A program made the position numbers and the translations under genes. Under the pieces are notes generated by a model. It searched no databases. It saw only the letters and a list, made by a program, of their open reading frames with translations, and was not told the DNA's origin. From positions 1-42,944 of the forward strand of contig CASDQQ010000095.1 of the NCBI GenBank assembly GCA_949282945.1: 42,944 bases of DNA, in the 5' to 3' direction. The stretch comes from an uncultured Eubacteriales bacterium (GTDB taxonomy: Bacteria > Bacillota > Clostridia > UBA1212 > CASDQQ01). The first letter of the stretch is position 1, and every line of letters begins with the position of its first letter. Shown piece after piece: positions 7,908 through 14,050 of this stretch.

Positions 7908-8957
7908 ATGATATTTAAAAGGGAACCCGGTATAATAACGGACTCGGTACAGATGCTTACAATATTTTTCAACAGAGAATATTATACCGAAAAAATTTCA
8001 AAAAGTAATCACGATCTGGAACTGGAGCTTAGGATCTTTGATAAATATATAAAAATATTTGAACATAAGATCCCTAAATATTTATCTCCTTTCTTTTATT
8101 GTGATGGAAATATCTCTTCTCTTATAAATCTTATACTGGATGATTATCTTTCTGAAGACCGCTCGGATTTTAATGAATTTTTACAATATATAAAAGATAA
8201 TATTTCTGTTGAAAAGCTTTTAACGCACTATTTTGGAGACGATTTTCCAGAAGAAACATCAGAGCTTATAAATAAAATATTTGAATACAATATAAAAGAC
8301 TCTATAAAATTATCCTTTATATTTTGTATAAACAATTTTGATTCTGTAATAATCGATGTAACAAATATTTTAAAAACATCTTATAGCGTAGCGTGCGATT
8401 TTCATAATGAAAACGCTGATCTGGTAAAAGAAATATATGAAAAAATAAATTCCGACTCCATAAAGGATTCTCTTTGCCTGTGTCTTGGAACGGATAAAGA
8501 GAGTATAGAGAAAAGCGTGTGTTCCATATCACTGGCGGCGCCGTCTATAATGATATGCAAGCCGGAATCTCAGACCGACGCCATGCTTATCATACTGGGG
8601 GAATACTGTCAGTACGCAATAGATTCCAAAATATCATACTCCAACGTTTCCATAGAGACACTTTCTGAGATACTCTATAATCCGCTCAAACGTACTATAG
8701 TGGAATATCTGTGCAAAAACAAAGAAATAAATCCCACAGTAGCGGCCAAGATCACGTGGTCATCTCCGAGTACGTCAGGCAGGACGCTTACCGCAATGTT
8801 AGGAGACAGTATACTTTATATAAGCAGAAAAACAAAGCTTTCCGTTTACTATTCTTTGCGAGAGGAATATCTTCTTTATGCAAAAAAGTACATGATAGAT
8901 TATCTGTCTCAGCAAATAGAGCTATACAACACTAATGTAAAAAATAACCGGCATTAA
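7908..8957 (+). CDS. Unrecognised winged-helix regulator, paralogue of the 12976-13977 gene
   Basis: A soluble, mostly helical protein of 349 residues that I cannot place in a named family. The C-terminal third (about 255-330) looks like an ArsR/MarR-type winged helix: LSEILYNPLKRTIVEYL, a recognition-helix segment, then a wing followed by LYISRKTKLSVYYSL. The N-terminal two thirds is Asp/Ile/Tyr-rich and may be a sensing domain. It aligns along its length with the protein at 12976-13977: similar N termini, and a shared I-L-G core just before the winged helix. It converges on paaK, sharing the bases of the two stop codons. Its position next to the paaK/ior operon suggests it controls that operon or the hflX side; this is inference. 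Confidence 0.75.
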   Translation: MIFKREPGIITDSVQMLTIFFNREYYTEKISKSNHDLELELRIFDKYIKIFEHKIPKYLSPFFYCDGNISSLINLILDDYLSEDRSDFNEFLQYIKDNISVEKLLTHYFGDDFPEETSELINKIFEYNIKDSIKLSFIFCINNFDSVIIDVTNILKTSYSVACDFHNENADLVKEIYEKINSDSIKDSLCLCLGTDKESIEKSVCSISLAAPSIMICKPESQTDAMLIILGEYCQYAIDSKISYSNVSIETLSEILYNPLKRTIVEYLCKNKEINPTVAAKITWSSPSTSGRTLTAMLGDSILYISRKTKLSVYYSLREEYLLYAKKYMIDYLSQQIELYNTNVKNNRH

Positions 8958-12760: not shown

Positions 12761-12809
12761 AAAAAAATATATGCAGCCATCGGTAAATATACACCGATCA
12801 CTGCATATA
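12761..12809 (-). terminator. Terminator after the regulator-peptide cassette
   Basis: The arms TATATGCAG (12768-12776) and CTGCATATA (12801-12809), with an inner ATCGGT/ACCGAT pair, form a long hairpin. On the minus strand a run of seven T follows. It ends the transcript 35 bp after the small peptide gene and separates it from the iorA promoter. Confidence 0.88.
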
Positions 12810-12843: not shown

Positions 12844-12957
12844 TTATCTGCCGTAGGCGAACGGTCCGCAATAATCGCTGCAAGCGCCTAAAGCCACTTG
12901 CTTTTTAAGCTCGTTTTTTCCTATGACCGTCATGGTAAATCTTTTCCATTCCTTCAA
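12844..12957 (-). CDS. Small two-cysteine peptide, 37 residues, function unknown
   Basis: A very short gene starting with TTG. The start is supported by a full-strength SD, AAAGGAGGG (12964-12972), placed 6 nt upstream. The product begins MKEWKRF, has a charged middle (GKNELKKQ) and ends V-A-L-G-A-C-S-D-Y-C-G-P-F-A-Y-G-R. The charged front and the Gly/Cys/aromatic tail resemble a leader-plus-core precursor peptide of the signalling or RiPP kind, but no modification or export gene is next to it. It begins 18 bp after the stop codon of the winged-helix regulator and is followed by a strong terminator, so the two form one transcript. I do not recognise the peptide family. Confidence 0.65.
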   Translation of the reverse strand: MKEWKRFTMTVIGKNELKKQVALGACSDYCGPFAYGR

Positions 12958-12975
12958 GACAATCCCTCCTTTACA

Positions 12976-13977
12976 TCAGCTAGTCTTTCCTCCGTCCATG
13001 TAATGAGAAAGTTTATTATTCATTAAGGCGGAGGCAACTTTAAAATACTCCTTGTTTATTTTATAATAAATACACTTATTTGTCACCTCATAAACGTAAG
13101 TAACCTTTTCTTTCGTAAGCTCTGACAATACTCTGTACACAGACGCCTGGGAATAATCGTCAAGCAGGTTATATATATTGGCGGGAGTAAGTTTTTCATA
13201 TTCGTCCAGCAGGTCGATCACTTTCATTGCCAGGTCGCTTTTTAAAACATAGGCCACAGATTTAAAATTTACATGGGCATATCTATTGTTTTTCAGGAAA
13301 TCTCCACATCTCAATCCTAAAATATATACAGTTTCTTTATTATTTATAGAATATCTCAGAGCATACTGATCGAGCAGTGATATTCCGTATACCGTAATCT
13401 CATTTTCAAGCTCAAACCCGAGAGTGTTCTTTATCTGTCCCAACAAGCTTTTGCTCAGCTGAAAATTCTTTAAAACTAAATTGTTCTGTCGGTACAATTC
13501 GGATATATGCTTATATACAATTTCTACATCAGATATCAGTCTTTCGATCACCCTGTCATGCTCGTTGAAAAATATACCTATGCTGAGCTTGTGGTCGGCT
13601 TCAACGTCAAGCTCGAATATATCCGCGTACCCCACCGGTTTTTCACTATGAAAATAGAAATTCATTATGTAGTCAAACAGGACATCTTTATTATTGAATA
13701 ATCTACTGATCAGACTCTCCACAGACTGTATATTGTTAAAATTTTTCAGCAGAAAGTCCATTAAAGCGGAAGTCCTTATGCTGTTAACATATTTAAAAAA
13801 AACCAGATATTCCTTTGGAAAGCTATTTTCTATTTTTATCCTGCTGTAATATTTAAAAAACAGTATCTCATCATATCCGTAAAAGCTTATATCCGCATCT
13901 ATGGTATTTTTATTAAAATATATTTCAAAATATTTGACAGTATCATATAATATGGATCTGTTTAAATCAAATTGCAT
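12976..13977 (-). CDS. Unrecognised winged-helix regulator, paralogue of the 7908-8957 gene
   Basis: A soluble protein of 333 residues with a Phe/Tyr/Asn-rich helical N-terminal part and a C-terminal winged helix (about 235-315). The latter shows VIDLLDEYEKLTPANIYNLL, then DYSQASVYRVLSEL as the likely recognition helix and a wing ending in C-I-Y-Y-K-I. It is homologous to the 349-residue protein at 7908. I start at the ATG at 13977, which aligns with its paralogue's start; a TTG at 13992 is possible but has no SD. It is co-transcribed with the 37-residue peptide gene and lies upstream of iorA. A peptide-responsive or self-regulated switch is a reasonable hypothesis, not shown. Confidence 0.78.
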   Translation of the reverse strand: MQFDLNRSILYDTVKYFEIYFNKNTIDADISFYGYDEILFFKYYSRIKIENSFPKEYLVFFKYVNSIRTSALMDFLLKNFNNIQSVESLISRLFNNKDVLFDYIMNFYFHSEKPVGYADIFELDVEADHKLSIGIFFNEHDRVIERLISDVEIVYKHISELYRQNNLVLKNFQLSKSLLGQIKNTLGFELENEITVYGISLLDQYALRYSINNKETVYILGLRCGDFLKNNRYAHVNFKSVAYVLKSDLAMKVIDLLDEYEKLTPANIYNLLDDYSQASVYRVLSELTKEKVTYVYEVTNKCIYYKINKEYFKVASALMNNKLSHYMDGGKTS

Positions 13978-14021
13978 TGTATCACGTCTCAATTCATGTA
14001 GTTAATATTACTTTGTTTACC

Positions 14022-14050
14022 ATTATATTGTAATCTGGGTCTTATGTCAA
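14022..14050 (-). promoter_or_regulatory. Perfect-consensus promoter of the regulator-peptide cassette
   Basis: On the minus strand TTGACA, exactly 17 bp and TATAAT: full sigma-A consensus, about 45 bp before the ATG. Such strength is unusual for a regulator gene. TAATATTA in the leader could be part of an operator. Confidence 0.85.

Follow-up and report, generated by a model that had tools for sequence, protein, structure and literature searches.

A candidate family of modified-peptide precursors that travel with their own regulators in Clostridia

Introduction

The linear polyphosphorylated peptides (LPPs) were recently described by Popov et al. (2026, Nat Commun 2026; PMC13381572). In this system, the RRE LppB binds a YxxP leader, the kinase LppK phosphorylates Ser3 of the core and the signal-peptidase-like LppS carries out the cleavage, and these proteins are accompanied by an NTP transferase and an exporter; in experiments, all three, the RRE, the kinase and the SpI protease, acted on a precursor with a [YW]xxP leader (PMC13381572). 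Links between radical SAM RiPPs and gene regulation have been described in streptococci, where RaS-RiPPs are under the control of Rgg and SHP, the latter being a separate pheromone and the former an RRNPP protein (review PMC13361665). The locus described here resembles the streptococcal systems in that radical SAM RiPP clusters are coupled to a regulator next to which a small peptide is encoded, but here this neighbouring gene is itself the RiPP-type precursor gene, and the regulator has a C-terminal part of the ArsR type. To our knowledge, few peptide signals are known for gut and rumen Clostridia.

The cassette reported in this work is located in contig CASDQQ010000095.1 (assembly GCA_949282945.1) of an uncultured Eubacteriales bacterium, and the entire stretch of 42,944 nucleotides is referred to below as the window. 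It is a candidate for a new bacterial peptide-signalling or peptide-product system.

Results

Organization of the cassette. The regulator and peptide genes are encoded on the minus strand in a single unit, headed by a sigma-70 type promoter, TTGACA-17-TATAAT (14022..14050, minus strand), that agrees with the consensus at 12/12 positions; the promoters of the other peptide-bearing cassettes of the same genome have 12/12, 11/12 and 10/12 consensus sites. The regulator gene (12976..13977, minus strand) is an open frame encoding 333 amino acids from the ATG at 13977, a TTG at 13992 being a possible alternative start. After a gap of 18 nt follows the peptide precursor gene (12844..12957, minus strand), which has 37 codons and a TTG start and translates into LKEWKRFTMTVIGKNELKKQVALGACSDYCGPFAYGR, followed by a stop codon. 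Its AGGAGG ribosome-binding site (12965..12970, minus strand) is placed 7 nt before the TTG, and among the window ORFs of 20-130 codons such a site is unique to the peptide ORF. The unit ends with an intrinsic terminator (12761..12809, minus strand), whose hairpin at about 12768-12809 folds far better than shuffled sequences (region -29.4 kcal/mol, z -4.4) and is followed by a U run. The preliminary description, which had reported a TTG-started gene of 37 codons with a full Shine-Dalgarno sequence 18 bp after the regulator, bounded by a perfect promoter and a strong terminator, is thus accurate on each of these features.

The position of the peptide gene upstream of iorA-iorB-paaK was likewise correctly described: the identity of iorA was confirmed by TIGR03336, which scored above its cutoff, and the genes after it are iorB-like and paaK-like. 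However, these genes are neighbours outside the cassette unit, because the terminator and a promoter-like site (12709-12680) intervene, the latter serving the iorA/iorB/paaK side past the cassette terminator; a peptide forming part of an iorAB-paaK operon was rejected on the same grounds. A toxin-antitoxin pair was also considered for the cassette, and no support was found. No transporter or peptide-import gene was found in the window cassette or in the maturation locus of its genome, and a comparison of the own-genome cassettes by shared k-mers and inverted repeats identified neither an operator before the window regulator nor one common to these cassettes.

The regulator. The window regulator belongs to no Pfam family; the profile of its own family, A1, recognizes it with an E value of 1.1e-124, the protein itself being part of the alignment. 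The full-length AlphaFold2 model has a pLDDT of 85 and comprises two parts. The N-terminal domain (residues 1-235; 13273..13977, minus strand) is predicted to be mostly helical (AlphaFold2 pLDDT 88, pTM 0.89), has no match in the PDB (best E 1.7) or among the viral folds of BFVD (best E 0.77), and has no family in Pfam, NCBIfam or PHROGs. This domain is thus a candidate for a sensor fold, uncharacterised as far as PDB and BFVD structures can tell. The C-terminal part (residues 236-327; 12997..13272, minus strand) is an ArsR-type winged helix according to Foldseek, which matched it to ArsR proteins including CadC and SrnR, and a profile search found ArsR sequences of the PDB with E values down to 2e-16. 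The 90 C-terminal residues resemble the ArsR/SmtB proteins in both fold and sequence, whereas the 235-residue N-terminal domain is additional to them. RRNPP receptors such as Rgg and PlcR possess an N-terminal HTH and a C-terminal TPR domain; the layout of the window regulator is different, with a C-terminal HTH preceded by the domain that lacks a PDB match.

PADLOC matches to the regulator were to the winged helices of Csa3/CARF-type proteins only. Matches to the regulator profile in genomes G110, G271 and many others were rejected, as these are ordinary ArsR-type proteins that match the winged helix only. Four shorter family members (271-285 amino acids) that are encoded directly upstream of a peptide gene have no winged helix (L040:5243-6058, L038:9500-10345, L039:377-1234 and L108:6126-6953), which means that DNA binding of this kind is not open to every "regulator".

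A peptide family paired with regulators. Regulator and peptide profiles were searched at the order and class level; peptide matches weaker than about E 5e-4 were put down to chance. The alignment of the family contains 26 distinct peptides from many Clostridia with the motif MK-x-W-x-K-P...E-L...I...[AG]-x-S...C. The tryptophan column is occupied as such in 25 of the 26, and a proline is found three residues later in 24, the exceptions being the window peptide, with F in the sequence WKRF, and its paralogue on contig 83 (WTRY). All 26 peptides have A or G before the core and Ser/Thr at its start, with a fixed W-to-S spacing of 23 residues, and the first and second cysteines are present in 19/26 and 25/26, respectively. 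Across the first eight peptides compared, W4, C26 and S27 were invariant.

The window peptide matches this pattern with W4, A25, S27 and C30, the serine standing 23 positions after the tryptophan, and its TTG aligns where the homologues carry MKxW with an ATG; it departs from the WxKP leader in that W4 is kept and the motif proline is replaced by F7. Its leader (residues 1-25, MKEWKRFTMTVIGKNELKKQVALGA; 12883..12957, minus strand) corresponds to alignment columns 16-40 and is followed by the predicted core (residues 26-37, CSDYCGPFAYGR; 12847..12882, minus strand), which contains the conserved Ser27 and the second cysteine. A putative cleavage point between A25 and C26 is suggested by A/G at position -1, a small or aliphatic residue at -3 and the S24 protease described below. 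The window peptide has no family in Pfam, NCBIfam or PHROGs.

The regulator of unrecognised family that had been noticed beside the peptide is a recurrent feature. A regulator of this same family adjoins 25 of the 26 peptides, in 24 cases directly upstream, with gaps between -86 and +64 nt; in L068 the order is reversed and the peptide precedes the regulator. The sole peptide without a regulator is that of L114, where a YcaO gene is present instead. This related cluster (L114:7559-12294) contains a YxKP-leader peptide of 69 amino acids together with HprK-like, PqqD, radical SAM, YcaO and S24 genes, and is a possible bridge towards LPP-type clusters. Regulator and peptide distances are correlated (Mantel r 0.61 for the leader and 0.41 for the core; 0/5000 permutations), which can be explained by shared descent alone.

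Six pairs of related peptides gave pN/pS values of 0.14-0.31, indicating purifying selection on related peptide genes; these values cover family pairs, and the window peptide itself had no orthologue close enough for a direct test of selection. Peptide conservation beside homologous regulators, called for in the preliminary description, is therefore established at the family level. Purifying selection on the relatives and the presence of three homologous regulator-peptide cassettes elsewhere in the genome set the cassette apart from chance. As judged from these alignments, the peptides form a previously undescribed family of apparent precursors that travel with their own regulator.

Other cassettes and orphan regulators of the same genome. 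Genome-wide statements on the window's own genome rest on sequence searches of its contigs. A translated search with the peptide revealed two further small ORFs behind homologous regulators (L002 and L003), and the regulator search returned seven places in total, to which the profile adds one in the window. Four regulator-peptide cassettes were identified (window and contigs 83, 35 and 56), in which the peptides have the tryptophan and then C-S at a fixed distance but differ in their cores. Two of the four keep WxKP, whereas the window (WKRF) and contig 83 (WTRY) cassettes do not.

At least three regulators are peptide-less, namely, one on contig 121, one on contig 5 and another family member in the window (7908..8957, plus strand; profile E 1.0e-28); no family peptide was found beside any of them. 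The additional window regulator is divergent from hflX and adjoins paaK. Upstream of the contig-121 orphan regulator is a perfect 21-bp inverted repeat with a 10-nt gap (L016:6247-6298), which is a candidate operator. The contig 46 regulator is a fragment at the contig edge, followed only by the tail of a peptide gene. The regulator ends on contigs 56 and 46 (L017:7435-7917 and L021:1-415) are 90% identical, with an identical 119-bp 3' end, and most of the peptide gene present on contig 56 is missing from contig 46; the two may be strain variants or the result of a mosaic deletion.

Maturation genes. In related genomes, the peptide-regulator pair lies within or next to clusters. Full clusters there contain genes for a PqqD-type RRE, a radical SAM/SPASM enzyme with conserved CxxxCxxC and SPASM cysteines, an HprK-like P-loop kinase and an S24/signal-peptidase-like protease, and several add NTP_transf_5, FkbH-like or ACP genes and paired ABC exporters. 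When named genomes were scanned with the radical SAM alignment, further clusters of this type were detected in MAGs of Clostridia, from ruminants among other sources. Phosphopantetheine-carrier, FkbH-like and NTP_transf_5 genes occur in the full clusters at L119:11027-13230 and L124:11264-12910, hinting at acyl or glyceryl transfer onto the peptide.

The window's own genome has a single high-similarity radical SAM gene of this kind, on contig 18, where it lies in a row of PqqD, radical SAM, HprK-like and S24 genes (L107) beside which neither a precursor nor a regulator was found. As the sole maturation locus is on another contig and has no precursor, processing would occur in trans. Genome G003 shows the same split: one of its contigs carries PqqD, S24 and radical SAM genes, and a solo cassette lies on a different contig. 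Co-occurrence was tallied from the peptide and radical SAM search tables, with peptide matches of E <= 4.7e-4 counted as real: of 391 genomes of the class, the peptide occurs in 9, the radical SAM enzyme in 8 and both in 7. The enzyme is thus present in 7/9 peptide genomes versus 1/382 others (Fisher p about 1e-12, an optimistic value because related species are not independent). The assemblies of the two peptide-bearing genomes in which no radical SAM homologue was found are 72% and 86% complete.

Discussion

The family, the pairing of peptide and regulator, the separate maturation locus and the domain make-up can all be read from the sequences. The window gene had originally been proposed to encode a signalling or modified-peptide precursor. 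The second part of this proposal is now well supported by comparative evidence, namely, the leader, the [AG]-x-S motif, the second cysteine and the associated RRE, radical SAM, HprK-like and S24 genes, whereas a signalling role is what we infer from the arrangement. Neither the family nor the separate maturation locus had been part of that proposal.

It appears probable, although with considerable room for doubt, that the gene encodes a RiPP precursor which, together with its dedicated regulator, forms one autonomous cassette, is processed in trans and is sensed by that regulator. The precursor would be translated from the TTG, and its leader would be bound through the W4 motif by the PqqD-type recognition protein of the contig-18 locus. 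The core would then be modified by the radical SAM/SPASM enzyme and the HprK-like kinase, for which Ser27 is, by analogy with LPP, the most likely target, and the signal-peptidase-like S24 protease would cut after Ala25 to give a 12-residue product, CSDYCGPFAYGR. The regulator may sense its own peptide, either as precursor or as returned product, via the N-terminal domain and adjust its own promoter via the ArsR-type winged helix. Pairing and co-inheritance fit the switch of peptide and regulator put forward in the preliminary description, the switch itself being conjectural. With four cassettes that have different cores, at least three peptide-less regulators and one maturation locus, the genome's set looks like parallel peptide channels. 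The weakest link in the case for the window cassette is the missing leader proline (WKRF). The lack of a transporter or import gene and of a recognised operator, the two peptide-bearing genomes with no radical SAM homologue and the family members devoid of a winged helix also count against this reading. A more general reading, in which the family represents a new class of intracellular peptide-sensing regulators, built of an unrecognised N-terminal sensor domain and an ArsR-type winged helix, each with a signal matured by radical SAM enzyme and kinase and with one locus serving several channels, is proposed more tentatively and may well prove wrong.

An alternative, which we regard as unlikely, is that the RiPP is secreted and serves a different purpose, for instance as an antimicrobial or surface-modifying peptide, and that the regulator is an ordinary cluster regulator that responds to another cue and does not sense the peptide. 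The paired ABC exporters, NTP transferase and FkbH-like genes of the related full clusters are consistent with secretion, as is the resemblance of these clusters to LPP and paeninodin clusters, the roles of which are unknown (PMC13381572). However, none of the cassettes in the window's genome is adjoined by an exporter, an immunity gene or an enzyme, yet each keeps its regulator, and regulator and peptide remain paired even where the enzymes are located elsewhere.

It is less probable still that the unmodified peptide serves its own transcription factor as a small intracellular ligand or anti-regulator, with a RiPP likeness that is ancestral only. Translational coupling or near-coupling with the regulator, as the range of gaps suggests, the loss of the RRE-motif proline from the window leader and the family members without a winged helix would agree with such a role, but the leader, the core serine and the second cysteine are still conserved and the genome has kept an intact maturation locus. 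That the window cassette is in decay, an orphan whose formerly functional precursor is now unprocessed, might be suspected from WKRF in place of WxKP and from the truncated sister locus on contig 46, but is very improbable given the perfect promoter, full Shine-Dalgarno sequence, clean terminator and intact frame, and the same WxR-aromatic change in the contig-83 cassette, which has a different core and therefore suggests a functional subtype.

If the reading as a precursor processed in trans and sensed by its own regulator is correct, radical SAM RiPPs with a coupled regulator would connect the modification of peptides with gene regulation in Clostridia of the gut and rumen, and the one-to-one pairing would offer ready-made, testable pairs of regulator and ligand. 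Precursors encoded in trans to their enzymes would be missed by cluster-centred genome mining.

A literature search for HPr kinase, radical SAM and PqqD combined in RiPPs returned nothing. The solved proteins most closely related to the radical SAM enzyme are the radical SAM/SPASM peptide maturases SkfB, CteB and PqqE, but the enzyme scores far below the cutoffs of the named NCBIfam maturases listed. In sactipeptides and ranthipeptides, radical SAM enzymes form thioethers at cysteine, and the second cysteine of nearly all family peptides would fit such chemistry. With paeninodin-type lasso peptides the family shares a WxxP leader in most members, an RRE, an HprK-like kinase and an NTP transferase; it differs by the absence of Thr at position -2 and by a radical SAM enzyme instead. 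No match of the window peptide to NCBIfam models, including that of the paeninodin precursor (NF033524), was found, and this leader model matches one relative weakly, below cutoff (E 0.0016). No lasso cyclase (macrolactam synthetase) or B2 protease was recognised among the ORFs of L107, L110 and L023, which were inspected visually and in part scanned. Inspection of the cassette surroundings likewise revealed no AgrB-type processing protein of the kind that accompanies AgrD-type autoinducers.

The closest experimental system is LPP. Common to both are a discrete PqqD-type RRE, an HprK-like kinase and an archaeal/SipW-type signal-peptidase-like leader protease, an NTP transferase and ABC exporters in related loci, a [YW]xxP-type leader and a conserved serine near the core start; the LPP combination of RRE, kinase and SpI-like protease is found in L107 of the window's own genome, unlinked to the peptide. 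The family is not a member of LPP because its precursor motif, WxKP...EL...I...[AG]xS...C, does not conform to the LPP motif YxxPxVLxHQxIxFETxxS. Moreover, it has a radical SAM/SPASM enzyme, whereas the LPP paper names none (PMC13381572), and it is distinguished by short cores, a dedicated adjacent regulator and, in the window's genome, precursors scattered away from the enzymes. In LPPs a core serine is phosphorylated multiply; the corresponding elements of the present system are the conserved Ser27 and a P-loop kinase, which would make Ser27 a potential phosphorylation site.
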